Positions 8,993 to 19,506 of a DNA stretch of 64,000 nt are shown here, one piece after another. The DNA lies in the NCBI RefSeq assembly GCF_011516645.4, contig NZ_CP088285.1, positions 3,304,501-3,368,500 on the forward strand, in the 5' to 3' direction. This DNA is from Bradyrhizobium septentrionale. Its GTDB lineage: Bacteria > Pseudomonadota > Alphaproteobacteria > Rhizobiales > Xanthobacteraceae. How positions within the stretch are numbered: position 1 is the stretch's first letter; each line of letters starts with the position of its first letter. The translations under genes were made by a program, and so were the position numbers. The notes below the pieces were generated by a model. The model searched no databases. It saw nothing but the letters and a program-made list of their open reading frames with translations, and had not been told where the DNA came from.

Positions 8993-9112
8993 CCGAACAA
9001 AACGGCGCTGCGCCTGAATTCGGCCAACGAGGCCGGTCAAGACGGGCGCGTCCGCGGCGAAGCGTAGGCATCGCCGCAATGCTGGTTCTCCCTCAATAAG
9101 GCGCAAGCCCCG

Positions 9113-10041: not shown

Positions 10042-10260
10042 CGCACGCAGACCCGTTGACCGTCATACTCTGGGACGTTGCGTCCCTCCGCAACACCCCC
10101 GTGGCAAGGGTCATGCCCGCCATCCCCAGTTCGTTCCCCGGCAGTCGTAAACGTGGTTTCCAGATTATTTATCAACTTCTCCTAGCGTTGGATTCGCCGG
10201 AACCACTATCTTGAGGGCGTGCAGAATCACCGGGCGCCGTCCCAAATCGAGACATGTTCG

Positions 10261-11952
10261 ATGCCACCTGTCCCGCCAGCCGCCAGCATCCTCGCCTCGC
10301 TCGGCCAGGCAACATTCGCCTGGGACCTGGCGAGCGACGCGATCGCCTGGAGCGACAATGCGGCGACGGTCTTCCCGGATATCCCCGTCGCTGCGCTCGC
10401 GAGCGGCGCCGAGCTCGCCAAGCTGATCGAGCCATTGCGTTCGGTTCGATCAGATGCGCTCGGCCAGGCCGCGACTGTGCGCAGCGGGGAGGGCGTTCCC
10501 TACCGGATCGAATATGGCGTGCGCGCCGTCACCTCGGCGCCGGTGATCTGGATCGAGGAGACCGGCTGCTGGTTTGCCGGCGCCGACGGCAGGCCGGCGC
10601 TGGTGCAGGGCGTCGTCCGCATCAACAATGAACGGCACGCCCGCGACGAGCAGCTCATGAAGCTGTCGCGGCACGATCCGCTGACCAACGAGCTCAACCG
10701 CACCTATCTGATCGCCTCGCTCGCCGAGACGATCGAGGAGTGCGCGCGCTTCCGCACCTCCTGCGCCTTCATGCTGATCGGCATCGATCACCTGGCGCGG
10801 GTCAACGATGCCTTCGGCTTCGATGTCGCGGACGCCGTCATCGCCGAGGTTGCGAAGCGGATCCGCGCCCGGCTGCGCAGCGGCGACATGCTCGGCCGCT
10901 TCTCCGGCAACAAGTTCGGCCTGATCCTGCGCAACTGCACCGTCGATGACACCAATGTCGCGGCCGAGCGCTTCCTCGCCGCAGTCCGCGACGAGGTGGT
11001 GCCGACCAAATCCGGCCCGGTGTCGGTGACCGTGTCGATCGGCGCCGTCACCATCCCGCGCCATGCCAGGTCGGCGGAGGAGGCGGTCAATCGCGCCCAG
11101 GAGACGCTGGACGCCGCCAAGAGCCGCCGCGCCGGATCGTTCGCGCTGTGGAAGCCGAATGTCGAGCGCGACGCCCAGCGCCGCGTCAACATCCGCGTCA
11201 CCGACGAGATCGTCACCGCGCTGAACGAGCGCCGTATCGTGATCGGCTTCGAGCCGGTGGTCGATGCGCGTTCGCGGCAGGCTTCGTTTTACGAGTGCCT
11301 GGTCCGCATGGAGCAGGACGACGGCCGGGCGCTGCTCGCGCCTGATATCGTACCGGTCGCCGAGCGGCTCGGCCTGATCCGGATGGTCGATCATCGCGTG
11401 CTGGAGCTCGCCATCGCCGAGCTTGCCGCCGCGCCTGATGTCCAGCTCAGCCTCAACATCTCGCCCGACACCACGATGGATCCGGACTGGTGGGCGACCA
11501 TCGAATCGCTGATGCGGGCGCATCCCGGCGTCGGCGAGCGGCTGATCGTCGAGATCACCGAGACGGTCGCGATCCAGGACATCGACGATGTCCGTGGCTT
11601 CGTCACGCGGCTGAAGAATTTCGGCAGCCGGATCGCGATCGACGATTTCGGCGCCGGCTACACCTCGTTCCGCAACCTGCGCAAGCTCGGCGTCGATATT
11701 GTGAAGATCGACGGCGCCTTCGTGCAGAACATCGTGCGCTCGGCCGACGACCGCGCCTTCGTGCAGACGCTGATCGATCTCGCCCGCCGTCTTGAGATCA
11801 AGACGGTCGCCGAATGGGTGCAGGACGAAGAAGCCGCCGTGATGCTGCGCGAGTGGGGCTGCGACTTCATCCAGGGCCGCCTGATCGGCCTCGCCTCGCC
11901 GGACCGGCCGTGGAACGGGGCGACCGAGAAGGCCGTGCCCGCCGCGAGCTGA
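10261..11952 (+). CDS. Degenerate-GGDEF/EAL-domain protein (probable c-di-GMP phosphodiesterase or sensor)
   Basis: A protein of 563 residues from the ATG at 10261; an in-frame ATG at 10219 is an alternative. An N-terminal region of about 125 residues resembles a PAS-like sensor fold. A GGDEF domain follows, beginning near SRHDPLTNELNR, but its signature loop reads SGNKF at 215-219 instead of GG(D/E)EF, so diguanylate cyclase activity is unlikely. The EAL domain (about 320-555) reads ECL at 345, yet keeps the other metal and substrate residues: N in LSLNIS, E in EITET, the DD of IDDFGAGYTS, K in VKIDGAF, E in TVAEWV and Q in FIQG. Phosphodiesterase activity is therefore plausible, with the GGDEF part possibly only binding GTP. 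There is no membrane segment. Confidence 0.92.
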   Translation: MPPVPPAASILASLGQATFAWDLASDAIAWSDNAATVFPDIPVAALASGAELAKLIEPLRSVRSDALGQAATVRSGEGVPYRIEYGVRAVTSAPVIWIEETGCWFAGADGRPALVQGVVRINNERHARDEQLMKLSRHDPLTNELNRTYLIASLAETIEECARFRTSCAFMLIGIDHLARVNDAFGFDVADAVIAEVAKRIRARLRSGDMLGRFSGNKFGLILRNCTVDDTNVAAERFLAAVRDEVVPTKSGPVSVTVSIGAVTIPRHARSAEEAVNRAQETLDAAKSRRAGSFALWKPNVERDAQRRVNIRVTDEIVTALNERRIVIGFEPVVDARSRQASFYECLVRMEQDDGRALLAPDIVPVAERLGLIRMVDHRVLELAIAELAAAPDVQLSLNISPDTTMDPDWWATIESLMRAHPGVGERLIVEITETVAIQDIDDVRGFVTRLKNFGSRIAIDDFGAGYTSFRNLRKLGVDIVKIDGAFVQNIVRSADDRAFVQTLIDLARRLEIKTVAEWVQDEEAAVMLREWGCDFIQGRLIGLASPDRPWNGATEKAVPAAS

Positions 11953-12157
11953 AGCGCGATGATCGGCTGATCACCGCCCTCCCGCTCCGTTCTCGGCAGA
12001 GGTTGCTCAAAATATGAGCGCGTCGTGCCCAAGCTTTGGCGCGGGTTCATCCAATTTATTGTGCGTTCCCAGACAAGTTTTCCGGCGGCGATCGGCTTTT
12101 ACTTCTTCGAGGTTTGGACCGTGGCTTGCGCCATGACAATGTCGAAAGAGGGATCGA

Positions 12158-13051
12158 ATGGTCACGCAATCTTTTCCGCGCACGCACAAACTGATGCATA
12201 TCGCGGCGCTAGGGGCCCTGCTGCTTGTGGGCGTCGGTGCCCCGACCGGCGCCAAGGCCGCCGCGCCGGCCGCCTGTGCCGAGTTGCAGGCGAAATATCC
12301 GGACTGGAAGGGCAAGACCCTTGTCAACGCCATCAATCCGCATACGCCAGGCTACGAGTCGATCGATCCGAAGGATCCGAGCAAATATGTCGGCTTCGAT
12401 ATCGATCTCGGCGAGCAGATTGGTGAATGCCTCGGCTTCAAGCTGACCTACAAGGCGGTGACCTTCGCCGCACTCCTGACCACGCTGGCCAGCGGTCAGG
12501 CCGACATTGTGATCTCTGACATCTACGCCACGGAAGAGCGTGCCAAGGCGGCCGACTTCATCACCTATTCGAAGGTGTTCGACGGCGTATTGGTCGCCAA
12601 AGGAAATCCGAAGAAGATCACCGGCATCAATACCTCGATGTGCGGCGCGGCGGCGGCCGAGAACACCGGCTACGTCGAAGTCCCGCTGATCCAGGCACTG
12701 GTGCCGGAGTGCAAGAAGGAGGGCAAGCCTGAGCCGACCATTCAGCTCTATGACAACAACGCCAACTGCATCCAGGCGATCCTGGCCGGACGCGCCGATA
12801 CTTATGTCAACGACGTCAACACCGTCGACAATGCGGTGAAGGCCTATCCGGATAAGCTCGAAAAAGCCATCGCGGTGACGATACCGTATCGCGTCGGCAT
12901 CGCCGTGCCCAAGGACGAGCCGAAATTCCGCGATGCCGTGAAAGCGGCGCTGACCGAGATCCACAAGTCGGGTGACCAGCTCGCGCTGCTGAAGAAGTGG
13001 AACCTCGATCCGGAGAACCTGATCGAGCCCGGTCTGCTGATGGTCAAATAA
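12158..13051 (+). CDS. Family 3 (polar solute) ABC transporter substrate-binding protein
   Basis: A periplasmic binding protein of 297 residues. The Sec signal peptide covers about the first 35 residues (core IAALGALLLVGVGAPTG, cleavage near AKAAA). The mature part shows the class II binding-protein pattern of HisJ/GlnH relatives: YVGFDIDLGEQIGECLGFK, ALLTTLASGQADIVISDIYATEERAKAADF and the C-terminal helix LKKWNLDPENL. Several cysteine pairs could form disulfides. The fused permease-ATPase begins 32 bases downstream, so this is the binding component of that transporter. The ligand is probably an amino acid-like or amide compound, judged from the formamidase genes that follow; this is inference. 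Confidence 0.93.
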   Translation: MVTQSFPRTHKLMHIAALGALLLVGVGAPTGAKAAAPAACAELQAKYPDWKGKTLVNAINPHTPGYESIDPKDPSKYVGFDIDLGEQIGECLGFKLTYKAVTFAALLTTLASGQADIVISDIYATEERAKAADFITYSKVFDGVLVAKGNPKKITGINTSMCGAAAAENTGYVEVPLIQALVPECKKEGKPEPTIQLYDNNANCIQAILAGRADTYVNDVNTVDNAVKAYPDKLEKAIAVTIPYRVGIAVPKDEPKFRDAVKAALTEIHKSGDQLALLKKWNLDPENLIEPGLLMVK

Positions 13052-13082
13052 GGCCAGCGCTGACAAAAGGACGGCCCGCTCC

Positions 13083-14693
13083 ATGGAGCTGTTCCTCCAC
13101 TATTTGACCATGCCGTATATGATCGAGGGCATTCAGGCGACCTTGCAGGTCACCGCCCTCGGTCTACTCGGCGGCCTCGTCCTCGGTGTGATCCTGGCGT
13201 GGATGCAGCTCAGCCGCTTCAAGCTGCTGGCGTCCTTCGCCCGGGTCTACACTGTGATTTTTCGCGGCACACCGCTGATCCTGCAGATGGTGTTCGCCTA
13301 TAACGCCCTGCCGCAGATCGGCATCAAGCTGCCCGCCATTCTCGCCGCCGGCCTCGCGCTGGCTTGCAACGAAGCGCCATTCATCGCCGAGATGCTGCGC
13401 TCCGGCGTGCTCGGCGTCGATCGCGGCCAGGTGCTGGCCGGGCAGGCGCTCGGCATGACGCCCGGCGTCCTGATGCGCCGGATCATCGCGCCGCAGGCGA
13501 TCCGTTCGATGATCCCCGCTTTCGGCAACGAGACCGTCAGCGCATTGAAGAATTCGTCGCTGGCGTCGGTGATCGCCGTGCAGGAGCTGACGTTGCGCTC
13601 GACCCAGATGGCGTCGGCAACTTTCGATTTCTTCTCGATCTTCTTCGCTTCCGGCCTGATCTATCTGTTCCTCACTGCGGCGATCGCCGGCACCCAGCTG
13701 TTCCTCGAATGGCTGTTCGATCTCGACCGCGCGTCGAAGCAGATGAGGCTGATGCGGATGATGCCGTGGTATCGGGCGCAGGGGCTCGATGATCCGCTGA
13801 CCGCGGCGGACGAGACGCCGCCTGAGATCCTGCCCGATGTCGGCGTCGCCGAATTGCCGCCGCCGCGTTCGCAGCCCGGGCGTATCGATCGTGCCAAACG
13901 CACCGAGATGCTGGCGCGAAACAACGTGGCCGTCGATATCGCCGCGCTGCGCAAGAGCTATGACAAGCAGGTGGTGCTCGCAGGCATCGATCTCGCGGTG
14001 CGGATCGGCGAGGTGATCGCGCTGCTCGGGCCGTCCGGCTCCGGCAAGAGCACGCTGCTCCGCTGCATCAATAATCTCGAGCTCTGGAACGACGGCAGCA
14101 TCAAGGTCGGCGGTCGCCGGCTCGGCTTCAACGATCACGGCAAGGCGCTGTCGCCGCGGCTGCTGGCGCAGGCGCGTGCCGAAGTCGGCGTCGGCATGGT
14201 ATTCCAGCAGTTCAACCTGTTCGGCCACCTCACCGCGAGGGAGAATATCGCCGGGCCGCTGCGCTGGGTGCATGGCGTGTCGCGCCCCGATGCGGATCGC
14301 CGGGCGACCGAACTGCTCGCGCGCGTTGGCCTCAGCCACCGTGCCGATGCGCTGCCGCGGCATCTCTCCGGGGGCCAGCAGCAGCGCGTCGCCATCGCCC
14401 GTGCGATCGCGCCGAATCCCAGCGTGCTGTTGCTCGATGAACCGACTTCCGCGCTTGACCCCGAACTCGTCAATGAGGTGCTTGAAGTCATCCGTCGCCT
14501 TGTGGTGGAAGACGGCCTCACCATGATCATTTCAACGCATCAACTGCGCTTCGCCAGTGAAGTCGCCGATCGCGTGGTGCTGCTGGCGGACGGCGCGATC
14601 ATCGAGGATGGCCCGGCCAATGAGGTGCTGAGCAATCCGCGCAATCCGGTAGCGCAGCGTTTCCTCAATGCCATGGAGGCCGAAATCGCATGA
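13083..14693 (+). CDS. Fused ABC permease and ATP-binding protein (polar amino acid/amide type)
   Basis: A protein of 536 residues joining two parts usually encoded separately. Residues 1-220 form a HisM/GlnP-like permease with the EAA loop ALGMTPGVLMRRIIAPQA near 120-140 and about five membrane helices. A linker of about 60 residues, rich in Pro and charged residues, leads to a GlnQ/HisP-type ATPase at 280-536. The ATPase has Walker A GPSGSGKST near 316-323, a Q-loop in MVFQQFNLFG, signature LSGGQQQRVAIARA, Walker B VLLLDEPTSALD and the switch histidine in IISTHQL. A homodimer of this polypeptide would supply both permeases and both ATPases. Its 3' end comes within 41 bases of the formamidase start, suggesting one operon. 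Confidence 0.93.
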   Translation: MELFLHYLTMPYMIEGIQATLQVTALGLLGGLVLGVILAWMQLSRFKLLASFARVYTVIFRGTPLILQMVFAYNALPQIGIKLPAILAAGLALACNEAPFIAEMLRSGVLGVDRGQVLAGQALGMTPGVLMRRIIAPQAIRSMIPAFGNETVSALKNSSLASVIAVQELTLRSTQMASATFDFFSIFFASGLIYLFLTAAIAGTQLFLEWLFDLDRASKQMRLMRMMPWYRAQGLDDPLTAADETPPEILPDVGVAELPPPRSQPGRIDRAKRTEMLARNNVAVDIAALRKSYDKQVVLAGIDLAVRIGEVIALLGPSGSGKSTLLRCINNLELWNDGSIKVGGRRLGFNDHGKALSPRLLAQARAEVGVGMVFQQFNLFGHLTARENIAGPLRWVHGVSRPDADRRATELLARVGLSHRADALPRHLSGGQQQRVAIARAIAPNPSVLLLDEPTSALDPELVNEVLEVIRRLVVEDGLTMIISTHQLRFASEVADRVVLLADGAIIEDGPANEVLSNPRNPVAQRFLNAMEAEIA

Positions 14694-14733
14694 ACAAAAA
14701 TCAGTCCGCTTGCATCCGCGTGAGGGCCTTTGC

Positions 14734-15975
14734 GTGAAACATCATCTGTTGTCGGTATCTGCGAAGACCGTGCATTGGGGCTATTTCAGCAAGGTCGTGG
14801 CGCCGGCGCTGACGCTGAAGTCTGGCGACCGCGCCACCATCGAGACGCTGACGCATCACGCCAATGACGATTACGAGCGCATGATCGAGGGCGATCCCGG
14901 CGCCGAGAGCGTGTTCAAATGGACGCGCGAGCACAAGGCGGTGGCGCGGCGCGGCTCGGGGCCTACCGAAGGCCCGTTCATCCGCGGCTCCGGCGAAGGC
15001 GTCGGCGTGCATCTGCTCACCGGCCCGGTGGCGATCGAAGGCGCCGAGCCAGGCGACGTGCTGGAGGTGCGCATTCTCGACGTGCGTCCAAGGCCGGCCT
15101 GCAAGGCCTGCCATGCCGGCAAATGCTTCGGCTCCAATGTCGCGGCCAATTGGGGCTTTCACTATCACGACTTGATCGAAGCGCCGAAGCCGCGCGAGGT
15201 GGTGACGATCTTCGAGCTCGACACGTTGGGCGAACCCTTCGCCAAGGCGGTCTACAATTATGTCTGGACGCCGCAGACCGATCCCGACGGCATCGTGCAT
15301 TCGACCATCGACTATCCCGGCGTGCGCGTTGATCACGCCACCATCGTCAAGCGCGAGAATATTCTGAGCAATGTCCGTGTGCCCGCGCGGCTGCATTTCG
15401 GCACCATGGGCCTCGCGCCGTCGGAGCAGGATTTCGTGTCCTCGATCCCGCCGAGCTATACTGGCGGCAATATCGACGACTGGCGCGTCGGCAAGGGTGC
15501 CAAGATGTTCTATCCGGTCGCGGTGCCCGGTGCGTTCTTCTCGGTCGGTGATCCCCATGCCGCGCAGGGCGACAGCGAGCTCGGTGGCACGGCGATCGAG
15601 ACCTCGCTCACCGGCGATTTCGAGTTCATCCTGCACAAGCATCGCGATCTCGGCGGCACACAGCTCGAAGGCCTGATACATCCGATGCTGGAAACTCCCG
15701 ACGCCTGGTCGGTCTACGGCTTCACCTATCCCAACTATCTCGCCGAGCTCGGCGCCAATGCGCAGCTCGAAATCGCCGATCATTCCAGCCTCGACCGCGC
15801 GATGCGCGACGCCTTCCGCAAGATGCGTCGCTTCCTGATGACGGTGCACAAGCTCAGCGAGGACGAGGCGATCTCGCTGATGTCGGTGGGCGCGGATTTC
15901 GGCGTGACGCAGGTGGTCGACGCCAATTGGGGCGTGCACGGGACCATCCGCAAGAACGTGTTCCGGTGTGACTGA
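14734..15975 (+). CDS. Acetamidase/formamidase family protein
   Basis: An amide hydrolase of 413 residues of the FmdA/AmdA family, which releases ammonia from formamide, acetamide or related short amides. Family signatures seen are VHWGYFS at the start, GDPGAESVFKWT, and GDPHAAQGDSELGGTAIE in the middle. The GTG at 14734 is preferred because GAGG lies eight bases upstream; an in-frame ATG at 14668 would overlap the transporter gene. A cysteine-rich stretch CKACHAGKCFG could bind metal. The protein is closely similar to the C-terminal domain encoded by the next gene, so the two are tandem paralogues. The upstream transporter probably supplies the substrate. Confidence 0.93.
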   Translation: MKHHLLSVSAKTVHWGYFSKVVAPALTLKSGDRATIETLTHHANDDYERMIEGDPGAESVFKWTREHKAVARRGSGPTEGPFIRGSGEGVGVHLLTGPVAIEGAEPGDVLEVRILDVRPRPACKACHAGKCFGSNVAANWGFHYHDLIEAPKPREVVTIFELDTLGEPFAKAVYNYVWTPQTDPDGIVHSTIDYPGVRVDHATIVKRENILSNVRVPARLHFGTMGLAPSEQDFVSSIPPSYTGGNIDDWRVGKGAKMFYPVAVPGAFFSVGDPHAAQGDSELGGTAIETSLTGDFEFILHKHRDLGGTQLEGLIHPMLETPDAWSVYGFTYPNYLAELGANAQLEIADHSSLDRAMRDAFRKMRRFLMTVHKLSEDEAISLMSVGADFGVTQVVDANWGVHGTIRKNVFRCD

Positions 15976-16057
15976 TCAGGCGCCGGCCACAGGGCAGGAC
16001 GTGTCATCCTTTGGGCTGGCATGGAGATTGCTTGGCTTTGGCTCCGAAGGTCGGTGC

Positions 16058-18397
16058 ATGAGGCCGCGTCCATTCACGAGTGAATCCTACTCCGAAGGCG
16101 ACCGCCCCGAGGCCTGGCGGGACGTCCTGGCGTCTGTCGGCTTGCAGCCGACGGCCGCCACAACCACTCATGCCGGCCATGCCACCGCGGTGCGGCGCAA
16201 TTTTCAGGGCGTGACGCTGGCGAGGCTTTCGGCAGGGCCACAATCGGTGTCGTTGCGCAGCGATGTGGTAGCCGATCATCCGCTCGTGCTCCTGCCGATC
16301 GAAGACGGGGTGGCACTGAAGACGGCGGCCGGTTATCAGATCGTCGCGGCGCGACATCTTCTGCTGCTGCCGCGCGCGGGGGACTGGAGCGTATCGTTCC
16401 AGCGCGAGATGCGCGCGGTGGTGCTGTCGGTGGCTTCCGAACCGGCGTATCGCCGCCGCACCACGCCGCAAGACGGTGAGACGCGTGTGCTTCCGCCCGG
16501 TGGCTTTGGCAGCGTATTTGCGCAGATGATGGAACTCGCCGCGCGCGATCTCGAAGCGCTGTCCGATGTCGAATGGACCGCGCTCGCGCGAAGTCTCGCC
16601 GATCTGCTGCCGACATTCATGTGTCAGCACAGCGATACGGCAAGCGATCTCGGCGGCAGCAGCGCCTCCAAGGCGGCGACGTTGCATCGCCTGTGCGAGA
16701 CCGTTGAACGCTGCCTCGACGATCCCGATCTGACGCCGGCGAAGATCGCCGGCGCTGAGGGCATTTCAGAACGCTACCTGCAAAAACTGTTCGAGGGTGC
16801 CGGCACCAGTTTCACGCATTACCTACGTGAGCGCAGGCTGCAGCGCACCTGGGCCGATCTGTCCAACCCCGCCGAGGCGCATCACTCGATCTCCGAGATC
16901 GCCTTCCGCGTCGGCTTCAACGACTCCGCGCATTTCAGCCGCGCCTTTCGCCAGCGCTTCGGTCTATCGCCGCGCGAATTCCGCCAGCATGAAGCCGAGC
17001 GCCAAGCCGCATCGACAGCCACAGCCGGCCAACGCGGCTGGCCTCAACAAGCCCTGGCGCAACTGCGCAGCCGGCATGTCGCGCTCGTGCGCAAGACCGC
17101 CGCACCCTTTAACGCGCATGACGTGGAGGTCGCGGACGCGGCGCGCCATCACCATCTCGCCGCCGACGCTTCGCGCGTGCATTGGGGATATTTCAGCCGT
17201 TCGTTGCCACCGCAGGTCGAGATCGGCTCCGGCGACACCATCACCATTGAGACGCTGACCCAGCACGCCTCCGACGATCCCGAGCGCATGATCAAGGGCG
17301 ATCCGGGCGCCGAGAGTGTGTTCCACTGGACGCGCGATCGGAAGAACGTCGATCGTCGCGGCGCCGGCCCGCTCGATGCCTCGATCTATGGCCGCGGCGC
17401 CGGCGAGGGATTCGGCGTGCACATTTGCACCGGGCCGGTGGCCGTGAAGGACGCGGAGCCAGGCGACGTACTGGAAATCCGCATCCTCGACATCGTGCCG
17501 CGCGCGAGCCGCAATCCGAATTTCAAGGGGCGCGTGTTCGGTAGCAGCGTCGCGGCCTGGTGGGGCTATCACTACAAGGAATTCCTCGCCGAGCAGAACG
17601 CCCATGAGGCGGTGACGGTCTACGAGATCATCGACGACGATGACGCGCCGCATGCACGAGCGCTGTATTCCTACCGCTGGGAGCCGCAAACCGATCCGTT
17701 CGGGACGCTGCACAAGACTTACGACTATCCGGGTATTCCGATCCCGCCATCATCGGTACGGCGCCGGCACGATGTGCTCGACGGCATCCGCATTCCGCTG
17801 CGTCCGCATTTCGGAGTTATCGCGCTGGCGCCGCGCGAGGCCGAACTTGTCGATTCCGTCCCGCCCGCATATTTCGGCGGCAATCTCGACAACTGGCGGC
17901 TCGGCAAGGGCTCGACGATCTATCTGCCGGTGTCGGTGCCAGGCGCGCTGCTGTCGGTCGGCGATCCTCATGCTGCACAGGGTGACGGCGAACTCGGCGG
18001 CACCGCCATCGAATGTTCGATGACCGGCACATTCCAGGTCATCCTGCACAAGAAGAACACGTTCACGAATCAGCCCTTCGCCGATCTCACCTATCCACTA
18101 ATCGAGACCGAAGCCGACTGGGTGCTGATGGGCTTCAGTCATCCCAACTATCTCGCCGAATTCGGCGCCAACGGGCAGAGCGAGGTCTATGCGACCTCGT
18201 CGCTCGATCTCGCGATGAAGGATGCGTTTCGCAAGATGCGCCGCTTCCTAATGAACATCAAAGGCCTCACCGAGGACGAGGCGATCGCGCTGATGTCGGT
18301 GGCGGTGGATTTCGGCGTGACGCAGGTGGTGGACGGCAATTGGGGCGTCCATGCCATCCTCAGCAAGCGCGTCTTCGATCACGCGCCGCAAACCTAA
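16058..18397 (+). CDS. AraC-family regulator fused to an acetamidase/formamidase domain
   Basis: A protein of 779 residues from the ATG at 16058 (GAAGG seven bases upstream); a GTG at 15968 overlapping the previous stop is an alternative giving 809. Residues 1 to about 190 resemble the AraC-binding-like N-terminal domain (PEAWRDVLASVGL, then beta strands). Residues about 225-311 hold the two helix-turn-helix units: AKIAGAEGISERYLQKLFEG and ISEIAFRVGFNDSAHFSRAF with RFGLSPREFR. After a linker of about 50 residues, a complete formamidase domain runs from VHWGYFSRS (near 373) to the end, with GDPHAAQGDGELGGTAIE intact. It may sense or process an amide and control the adjacent operon; whether it is enzyme, sensor or both is unknown. 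No frameshift joins the halves. Confidence 0.9.
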   Translation: MRPRPFTSESYSEGDRPEAWRDVLASVGLQPTAATTTHAGHATAVRRNFQGVTLARLSAGPQSVSLRSDVVADHPLVLLPIEDGVALKTAAGYQIVAARHLLLLPRAGDWSVSFQREMRAVVLSVASEPAYRRRTTPQDGETRVLPPGGFGSVFAQMMELAARDLEALSDVEWTALARSLADLLPTFMCQHSDTASDLGGSSASKAATLHRLCETVERCLDDPDLTPAKIAGAEGISERYLQKLFEGAGTSFTHYLRERRLQRTWADLSNPAEAHHSISEIAFRVGFNDSAHFSRAFRQRFGLSPREFRQHEAERQAASTATAGQRGWPQQALAQLRSRHVALVRKTAAPFNAHDVEVADAARHHHLAADASRVHWGYFSRSLPPQVEIGSGDTITIETLTQHASDDPERMIKGDPGAESVFHWTRDRKNVDRRGAGPLDASIYGRGAGEGFGVHICTGPVAVKDAEPGDVLEIRILDIVPRASRNPNFKGRVFGSSVAAWWGYHYKEFLAEQNAHEAVTVYEIIDDDDAPHARALYSYRWEPQTDPFGTLHKTYDYPGIPIPPSSVRRRHDVLDGIRIPLRPHFGVIALAPREAELVDSVPPAYFGGNLDNWRLGKGSTIYLPVSVPGALLSVGDPHAAQGDGELGGTAIECSMTGTFQVILHKKNTFTNQPFADLTYPLIETEADWVLMGFSHPNYLAEFGANGQSEVYATSSLDLAMKDAFRKMRRFLMNIKGLTEDEAIALMSVAVDFGVTQVVDGNWGVHAILSKRVFDHAPQT

Positions 18398-18425
18398 CGA
18401 TCAAAGATCAGACGAGGAGACGTCG

Positions 18426-18812
18426 TTGCAGTTTCACATGATATCCGGTGGCCCGAAGCCGGTCGCGCCGTTCAGCCATGCGGTCGAGACCGACGGCTTC
18501 GTCTTCGTCACCGGCCAGATGCCGGATACGCCAGCCACACCCGGCATATTGCCCTGCAGCATCGCGGCGCAGACTCGCGCGGTGATGGAGAATTTGCGCG
18601 TGGTGCTTGCGGGCCTGGATCTCGGCTTCGAGCATATCGTGATGTCGCGCATCTATCTGACGCGCTTCGAGGACGATTATGCGGCGATGAACGAGATCTA
18701 TCGCGGCTACTTCCCGTCCGATCGCCTGCCGGCCCGCACCTGCGTTGGCGTGACCGGTCTAGCCTATGGTGCGTTGATCGAAATCGATCTCGTCTGCCGC
18801 CGACTTGCATAG
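18426..18812 (+). CDS. RidA/YjgF-family protein
   Basis: A protein of 128 residues from a TTG start with GAGGAGA five bases upstream; an ATG four codons later is an alternative. The RidA fold signatures are PVAPFSHAVETDGFVFVTGQ, a QTRAVMENLRVVL helix, and the C-terminal LPARTCVGV segment with the conserved arginine and glutamate (ALIEIDLV). RidA proteins deaminate reactive enamines/imines or act on related small metabolites. It begins 28 bases after the fusion gene, so it probably belongs to the same operon and might handle an intermediate of amide breakdown. The spacing in that operon is otherwise tight. Confidence 0.9.
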   Translation: MQFHMISGGPKPVAPFSHAVETDGFVFVTGQMPDTPATPGILPCSIAAQTRAVMENLRVVLAGLDLGFEHIVMSRIYLTRFEDDYAAMNEIYRGYFPSDRLPARTCVGVTGLAYGALIEIDLVCRRLA

Positions 18813-18918
18813 ACGCAGCGAACGCCGGCTGAAGAGAGGTTAGCGGCGCCTGACGCCGGGTTCGCCGGCATCAGATCCATGGTGCGGCCGGTCGGTCCGG
18901 CCGATCGGCGATCAGGAC

Positions 18919-19506
18919 CTACTCGTCCTTCTTCGTCGGCTGCGACATGCGCTCGAGGCGTTCCTGCATGTCCTTCATCTGGCGGCGAAGGTCGTCGATG
19001 TTGCCATCGTCAGCCGCAGGCTCCGGCAGCTTCTCGGCCTCACCACCGCGCTGCGGCACGAACGGCTTGAACATCGAGAAGGTCTGCTGGAACAGCTCCA
19101 TGTTGCGGCGGACCTGCTCTTCCAGCGGAGCAAACGGCGTACCGCTCAGGGCGCCCGCGATCTGCTTGCGAAATCTCTCCTGTTCCCGGGTCAGCTGATC
19201 GATCGACTGCTCGAGATATTTCGGCACCACCATCTGCATGCTGTCGCCATAGAACCGGATCAGCTGGCGCAGGAACGTGGTCGGCAGCAGGTTCTGGCCG
19301 GCCTTGTTCTCCTGCTCGAAGATGATTTGCGCGAGCACGGAGCGGGTGATGTCGTCGCCGGTCTTGGCGTCATAGACGAGGAAATCCTCGCCTTCCTTCA
19401 CCATCGCCGCGAGATCCTCGAGCGTCACATAGGTGCTCGTACCGGTATTATAGAGCCGCCGGTTCGCGTATTTCTTGATCGTGGTCGGTTGTTCAGATTT
19501 TGCCAT
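18919..19506 (-). CDS. phaR: Polyhydroxyalkanoate synthesis repressor
   Basis: A protein of 195 residues with the PHB/PHA accumulation regulator DNA-binding domain at the N-terminus (TTIKKYANRRLYNTGTSTYV, then the helix EDLAAMV), followed by the PHB_acc domains through about residue 130 and a charged coiled-coil-like tail ending DLRRQMKDMQERLERMS. PhaR represses phasin and PHA genes and binds polymer granules, so its DNA affinity changes as polymer forms. It is divergent from phaA across a 315-base region, a usual arrangement. Confidence 0.97.
   Translation of the reverse strand: MAKSEQPTTIKKYANRRLYNTGTSTYVTLEDLAAMVKEGEDFLVYDAKTGDDITRSVLAQIIFEQENKAGQNLLPTTFLRQLIRFYGDSMQMVVPKYLEQSIDQLTREQERFRKQIAGALSGTPFAPLEEQVRRNMELFQQTFSMFKPFVPQRGGEAEKLPEPAADDGNIDDLRRQMKDMQERLERMSQPTKKDE

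Follow-up and report, generated by a model that had tools for sequence, protein, structure and literature searches.

An open reading frame in the stretch of Bradyrhizobium septentrionale DNA analyzed here (64,000 nucleotides, hereafter the window) joins an AraC-type regulator to an acetamidase/formamidase (FmdA/AmdA) domain. The fusion is widely conserved, its DNA-binding and FmdA parts are both under strong selection, and a conserved DNA element tracks it. The element is what is new here, whereas the domain combination itself already appears in database names. The protein is probably an activator of the AraC family that acts locally and whose cytosolic sensor domain was once an FmdA-type amidase. 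A small amide or amide-like compound would enter through the neighboring transporter, or would arise in the periplasm where FmdA is exported, and would bind in the pocket that the fused FmdA domain has retained. Tandem half-sites upstream of the operon would then be occupied by the AraC part, which would recruit RNA polymerase, and production of the transporter, the free FmdA enzyme, RidA and the regulator itself would follow.

The fusion gene and its operon

The fusion can be read with 0 stops and 0 frameshifts from either ATG 16058 or GTG 15968 to position 18397. Alignments of relatives begin near ATG 16058, though the frame is open upstream to GTG 15968. Pfam recognized HTH_18 (3e-22; 79.1 bits against a cut-off of 33.6) and HTH_AraC (7.1e-11; 42.4 bits against 26.6), which places the DNA-binding part with the AraC/XylS helix-turn-helix (HTH) proteins. 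It also recognized a full-length FmdA_AmdA domain (PF03069; 4.1e-30; 105.4 bits against 27), a member of that superfamily. Among solved proteins, 3b9t is the best match to the C-terminal part (E 1.5e-178), and because it aligns across residues 361-774 the enzyme domain is full length. The earlier note had described one continuous frame encoding an AraC-type N-terminal domain, two HTH units and a whole FmdA/AmdA domain with the sequence GDPHAAQGDGELGGTAIE; this architecture was borne out and the quoted sequence is present in the fusion.

The N-terminal region of the window protein gave no match to Pfam AraC_binding_2, a domain found in many full-length relatives including that of locus L108. 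The RG-x-P motif of the linker reads RGWP in the window protein and RGRP in many relatives, and R326, G327 and P329 are invariant in 60 aligned fusions. Like other AraC/XylS regulators, the fusion has two HTH units, and its N-terminal region may be AraC-binding-like. FeaR is the best-scoring named model (equivalog NF007243), the fusion reaching 108.6 bits, below the cut-off of 199. The FeaR model ends at the HTH, whereas the fusion continues with a 413-residue enzyme domain. Both the fusion (61.4 bits) and the free enzyme (63.3 bits) fall below the cut-off of 500 for the formamidase FmdA equivalog (NF045496), and therefore formamidase activity should not be assumed for either protein. PADLOC, searched for defense systems, gave 0 matches for the fusion or the free FmdA.

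All genes from the solute-binding protein to the fusion lie on the same strand, separated by intergenic gaps of 31, 40 and 82 bases (Table 1). The top NCBIfam models for the permease-ATPase are amino acid transporters, with scores under their cut-offs. The gene upstream of the fusion, previously called a stand-alone paralog, does encode a free FmdA homolog that is 56% identical to the fused domain and appears to lack an export signal. It is not the closest relative, as FmdA proteins of mostly exported type are closer. An upstream RNA element was rejected, Rfam at the gathering threshold having given 0 matches between window positions 9000 and 20000.

Table 1. Features of the fusion gene, its operon and the upstream region in the window
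Feature	Position	Strand	Basis
Possible auxiliary half-site TGCCCAAGCTTTGGC	12026..12040	+	TGCC-N-AAA stands out at that offset among 18 context A sites; putative function
Candidate operator, consensus CAA-N-TTTTTGTGCG-N7-ACAAG, 1/18 mismatch	12052..12077	+	Recurrence, genome scan, hold-out test
Possible -10 element TTACTT, 21 nt past operator	12099..12104	+	Putative
Solute-binding protein family 3 (ABC uptake)	12158..13051	+	Pfam SBP_bac_3 4.6e-28
Fused permease and ATPase, polar amino acid type ABC transporter	13083..14693	+	BPD_transp_1 and ABC_tran in one protein
Stand-alone FmdA/AmdA homolog	14734..15975	+	FmdA_AmdA 7.4e-30; 3b9t E 1.1e-179
AraC-FmdA fusion, putative regulator, 779 aa	16058..18397	+	Single open frame, Pfam, 3b9t alignment, homologs
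N-terminal AraC-binding-like region, residues 1-200	16058..16657	+	AraC_binding_2 in many relatives; mean dN/dS 0.374
Two helix-turn-helix units, residues 205-315	16670..17002	+	HTH_18 and HTH_AraC; mean dN/dS 0.166
Linker, residues 316-361, conserved RG-x-P	17003..17140	+	Mean dN/dS 0.568
FmdA/AmdA domain, residues 362-774	17141..18379	+	Pfam, 3b9t, alignment; mean dN/dS 0.133
Gln402 codon (ETLTQH), His in free FmdA homologs	17261..17263	+	Residue comparison
RidA family protein, last operon gene, start uncertain	18426..18812	+	Ribonuc_L-PSP 2.1e-28 for the longer frame from 18351

Distribution, ancestry and selection

Two protein searches were carried out, and in each of them HTH_18, HTH_AraC and FmdA_AmdA occurred together in 120/120 proteins (the best 120 of about 3100); the architecture is therefore conserved. 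An AraC HTH combined with FmdA_AmdA was found in 240/240 homologs among the matches listed, on which ground a frameshift or misassembly was rejected. By our count the fusion is present in 27/100 genomes including its own, one copy being cut by a contig end. A GTDB scan confirmed at least 367 relatives, and the fusion was recovered in 78 of the best 80 loci by our own gene calls, in which gene starts and some strands come from a simple script and L169 and L179 may hold a missed FmdA gene. The fusion is found in Alpha-, Beta- and Gammaproteobacteria. Its GTDB loci include Bradyrhizobium, Tardiphaga, Rhodopseudomonas, Ancylobacter, Roseibium, Martelella, Paraburkholderia, Caballeronia, Variovorax, Rubrivivax, Cupriavidus, Pseudomonas kuykendallii, Pseudoxanthomonas and Aliiglaciecola. 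Searches of open-licence papers found no study of the AraC plus FmdA/AmdA architecture, in line with the earlier note, which knew of no such system; databases, however, already carry the combination under the names 'acetamidase/formamidase/AraC-like DNA-binding protein' and 'Transcriptional regulator, AraC family with acetamidase/formamidase'.

The fusion lies in three main contexts. In context A (18 loci: the window, L040-L049, L059 and L119-L124) the genes for the solute-binding protein, the permease-ATPase, FmdA (mostly without a twin-arginine sign), the fusion and RidA follow one another on one strand, with RidA adjoining the fusion in 14/18 loci, window counted. In context B (L050-L052, L107, L109-L112, L114 and L117) the fusion is divergent from an FmdA gene whose product has a twin-arginine-like N-terminus. 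In context C (L108, L113, L115 and L116, assigned by clustering, with Pfam run for four L116 genes) it is divergent from the TRAP genes DctP, DctQ and DctM and an enzyme of the gamma-glutamyltranspeptidase (GGT) family. Other loci hold a short FmdA, a GGT-family gene (L199, L202), or dioxygenase, isochorismatase and TonB receptor genes. The enzyme at fusion loci thus varies among cytosolic-type, exported-type and short FmdA proteins and an HpxW-like enzyme with TRAP genes. Here 'exported' denotes a crude sign (RR within the first 60 residues) and a few sequences read by eye. Six of the lone-FmdA loci L053-L058 and L125 carry the RR sign, and L057 is without it.

The context C enzyme matches 5hft over the length of both its chains (E 6e-94 and 1.4e-78). 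This entry, deposited as a gamma-glutamyltranspeptidase, is presumably HpxW, the oxamate amidohydrolase of Klebsiella described by Hicks and Ealick 2016. HpxW resembles the neighbor enzyme of context C, not the fusion, and oxamate would be a putative substrate. A passage of PMC5270733 credits oxamate amidohydrolase activity to the work of Hicks and Ealick 2016. For the TRAP binding protein of L116 the closest match is 7ug8, named a ketoacid-binding protein. Oxamate is close to pyruvate in shape, which makes it a fair guess, no more, for context C.

In a tree of 82 rows (81 different), the 44 fused-domain rows (43 different) form one clade with support 100/96, nested among FmdA proteins that are mostly of exported type. 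A separate clade (100/100) unites the FmdA partners of context A. Recent duplication of the neighboring free enzyme was rejected as the source of the fused domain, since its clade (StdA) lies outside the group of fused domains and most exported-type FmdA proteins. Separate fusions in each context are not favored, as the fused domains are one clade and the label needs one change on the tree. Distances of the fusion, the free FmdA and the binding protein correlate (r 0.82 to 0.90, 57 loci), which fits joint inheritance and equally fits ordinary species divergence.

Selection was examined as mean dN/dS between the window and 12 context A relatives. Values were low in the HTH units and the FmdA domain (Table 1), the free enzyme giving 0.122; DNA-binding and enzyme parts are therefore both strongly constrained. 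Fusions of neighboring genes are common, and the protein might simply be bifunctional, a chance fusion without regulatory coupling, or an artefact of annotation or a frameshift. Any of these is very improbable, as the fusion is one clade across three classes of Proteobacteria, its HTH is constrained and the element tracks it.

The fused domain as sensor or enzyme

Residues were compared among 65 free homologs, 6 short FmdA proteins (the truncated pieces L034 and L035 omitted) and 275 distinct fused domains, incompletely covered ones having been dropped beforehand; close relatives are over-represented among the 275 because most come from the best 120 of each search. E398, D406, D470, R482, E517, D611, D636, H638, D643, E645, E652, E683 and D759 are invariant in 275/275 fused domains. 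R482 and E517 occur in 5/6 short FmdA proteins and the other invariant residues in 6/6. The invariant residues also hold in the GTDB set, except that D759 is Asn in 2/75 fusions; K665 is Arg in 3/76. From their conservation, these would be active-site residues.

Position 402 is Gln in 270/275 fused domains and His in 65/65 free homologs, and in the GTDB set it is Gln in 73/78 fusions and His in 68/70 companions. Four changes between Q and H at this position are needed on the tree. Position 623 is Leu in 275/275 fused domains and Tyr or Phe in 65/65 free homologs; the GTDB set has Leu in 77/77 aligned fusions and Tyr or Phe in 70/70 companions. Positions 381 and 644 likewise separate the fused from the free set (275 against 65), although the split at 644 fails in the GTDB set, where 46 of 77 fusions have Gly and 31 have Ser. 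These substitutions suggest that the chemistry or specificity of the fused domain may be altered, short of proven loss. Loss of catalysis cannot be concluded because the acetamidase 2ii1 has Leu at 623 and some more distant family members are without the His motif at 402. Like the 3b9t subgroup of the FmdA/AmdA family, then, the fusion has a full-length domain, the conserved acidic residues and His638. It differs from that subgroup in His402 to Gln, in Tyr623 to Leu and in its tether to an AraC regulator, and, whereas the name of 3b9t marks it as a twin-arginine signal protein, an export signal appears to be lacking in the fusion.

Sensing by the FmdA domain is favored on indirect grounds, because this domain is the most constrained part of the protein, keeps the conserved residues and has no evident export signal even beside an exported partner, and because it is kept in context C, where the operon enzyme belongs to another family. 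We infer that ligand sensing falls to this domain and that an amide is what it binds. Sensing may instead reside in the AraC-type N-terminal region. Regions of this kind often bind ligands, and the FmdA domain could then be mainly an oligomerization scaffold for AraC units on tandem sites; solved FmdA relatives, with 4 to 8 chains per entry, hint at oligomers. We regard this arrangement as improbable, since a scaffold has no need for family-wide conserved residues, yet they are kept throughout the fused set, and the N-terminal region is less constrained than the HTH and FmdA domain.

The main rival is a trigger enzyme, in which the fused domain would still be an active amidase and DNA binding would be switched, in the manner of PutA, by turnover or absence of its substrate. 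The 13 invariant residues from E398 to D759 agree with such an activity, as does selection on the fused domain about as strong as that on the free enzyme. Furthermore, the four context C loci have no separate FmdA within the 12.7-18 kb examined, G343, G397 and G409 having one elsewhere. However, a separate FmdA gene lies within the examined stretch in 69/78 GTDB fusion loci (from the best 80), where a second enzyme looks redundant, and nearly all fusions have Gln in place of the free enzymes' His402. A trigger enzyme is on balance rather unlikely, and sensing by a former amidase remains the preferred reading.

The folds of PutA differ from those of the fusion. PutA nevertheless resembles it in combining an enzyme fold and a DNA-binding part in one protein encoded beside genes that it may control. 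A passage of PMC6978683 describes PutA as a proline dehydrogenase and repressor of the put operon. PutA is thus a repressor, whereas the fusion is probably an activator with putative catalysis by its fused domain. Enzyme-derived sensor domains are known: MocR-type regulators join an HTH to an aminotransferase-like domain, and some AraC regulators carry DJ-1/PfpI-like domains. These likewise use an enzyme-derived sensor, of other folds, and the fusion keeps its AraC-type N-terminal region too. Few comparable proteins have a probably active relative in the same operon. Because both copies, a candidate operator and a separating substitution are in hand, the conversion of enzyme into receptor can be tested one residue at a time. 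Finding the ligand would aid substrate assignment for many transporters and FmdA-like enzymes that so far bear only family names, and would provide an amide-responsive expression switch.

A candidate operator upstream of fusion operons

The window carries the sequence CAATTTATTGTGCGTTCCCAGACAAG 80 bp ahead of the transporter gene. It is a copy of an element in which 22 bp separate two CAA-type half-sites; such candidate tandem half-sites, spaced by about two helical turns, would be a further likeness to AraC/XylS regulators. The earlier note had suggested that the fusion may control the transporter-formamidase operon and had named positions 11953-12157 as the place to look for DNA binding. The candidate operator falls inside this region and tracks the fusion, so that such control is well supported, if indirectly. 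We infer that the fusion protein binds the element at 12052-12077 and activates the operon, though another regulator could in principle bind it.

With at most 2 mismatches the element occurs in 23/32 upstream regions (14/18 in context A, 9/14 in contexts B and C) compared with 0/3200 shuffles. Because its consensus was drawn from the same 32 regions, reliance was placed on further tests, the first of them at the same threshold. Among 716,689 bases from 39 loci, 22/22 matches fall at the target regions of fusion operons, and the element is absent from the seven lone long FmdA loci (L053-L058, L125). The window copy is the sole match in its own 10.4-Mb genome. The 100 genomes hold 37 matches, 23 of them at 23/23 assessable context A fusions (G016 was left out, its contig being too short to judge), 1 in G013 and 13 elsewhere, against 11 matches for a reversed control pattern. 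At the fusion site of G004, G010 and G096, which are context B genomes, there is no match. G013, which has the element and no fusion, was rejected as an exception, since an in-frame deletion that starts inside the solute-binding gene and ends inside RidA has removed its operon and left the element. In 397 genomes of the order, a set partly overlapping the 100, the element is present at 17/23 fusion loci, with 31 matches elsewhere against 34 for the reversed control by our count.

A hold-out test used a matrix built from 10 distinct own-family sites. The top site lay on target in 47/62 loci, a number that overstates independent cases because several loci come from related species; with 60 column-permuted matrices the number on target was 6.4 on average and at most 14, the expected places making up 10.4% of bases. 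Loci of the own genus or copies of L120 and L124 (L167, L176, L178) and loci with no fusion called (L190, L197) were left out; L122, L123, L135-L162 and L171-L174, which belong to the own family, were unused. In Rubrivivax (L209) the element has 0 mismatches and the fusion is 49% identical. Against the activator reading, the top site was off target in 15/62 loci, L186 being scored so because its start was placed too far upstream. Some fusions, moreover, have a weak element or none, with 4 to 6 mismatches at L050-L052, L110, L111, L119-L121 and L124. The top matrix score was below 4 at L121, L175, L180, L199, L200, L205, L212, L214 and L208, the last of which is cut by its contig.

Spacing within the element is constant, both ahead of the operons of context A and between the divergent genes of contexts B and C. 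In context C it sits closer to the fusion gene, which suggests autoregulation or action in both directions. A TAnnnT hexamer was seen by eye 20-21 nt past ACAAG in 15/18 context A loci, the window, L044 and L121 being those without it. A -35 box that abuts or overlaps the proximal half-site is the layout of AraC-type activation. From the position of the hexamer, such a box may lie beside the proximal half-site or slightly overlap it here, a geometry that is only suggestive because the window's own -10-like sequence is weak.

A broader scenario is conceivable and is put forward tentatively. A single ancient fusion would have made an amidase into a sensor, with His402 changed to Gln and the rest of the core nearly frozen, and this regulator with one type of operator would have been recruited to varied operons in three Proteobacteria classes for a variety of small amides, oxamate in the TRAP/HpxW-like case among them. 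If so, an enzyme pocket would be a transferable amide receptor.

Among the off-target top sites in the hold-out test, one precedes a TauD dioxygenase gene (L118) and another a TonB receptor gene (L187). These may be real further targets.

The linker between the HTH units and the FmdA domain

The fusion possesses RG-x-P in the linker between its two HTH units and the FmdA/AmdA domain. The motif is invariant among 60 aligned fusions, and many of these have the form RGRP. This motif resembles the core of an AT-hook. The candidate operator contains an AT-rich stretch.

Feature coordinates in the window and in locus L131 of a relative
Feature	Sequence	Positions	Residues
Linker RG-x-P	window	17033-17044	326-329
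ABC transporter permease-ATPase	window	13083-14693	
Site matched in G004 and G010	window	10219-19506	
In-frame operon loss in G013	L131	6786-7553	

Possible exchange of fusion cassettes and loss of an operon

In the window, the operon encodes the ABC transporter permease and ATPase as a single protein, as do the relatives compared that share this one-strand arrangement (context A). In genome G013 an in-frame deletion, with its ends in the solute-binding gene and RidA, has removed the operon; a hybrid solute-binding protein-RidA reading frame and the candidate operator remain.

In genomes G004 and G010 (loci L050 and L051), the chromosomal site matching that of the window carries an exported-type FmdA with a divergent fusion (context B), and the window carries the context A operon. 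In all three the site is flanked by an EAL-GGDEF gene on one side and a PhaR-like gene on the other. It appears as if the two cassettes were exchanged at a single site.

Other neighbors of the fusions

Fusions in six loci (L118, L187, L193, L196, L210 and L212) have genes nearby for TauD or Rieske dioxygenases, LigB, isochorismatase-type hydrolases or TonB receptors. Such neighbors hint at a further role for the fusions in the breakdown of nitrogen-containing aromatic compounds. ABC-type fusion operons also have gamma-glutamyltranspeptidase-family genes nearby, with strong matches in L199 and L202 and weak matches in L157 and L174.
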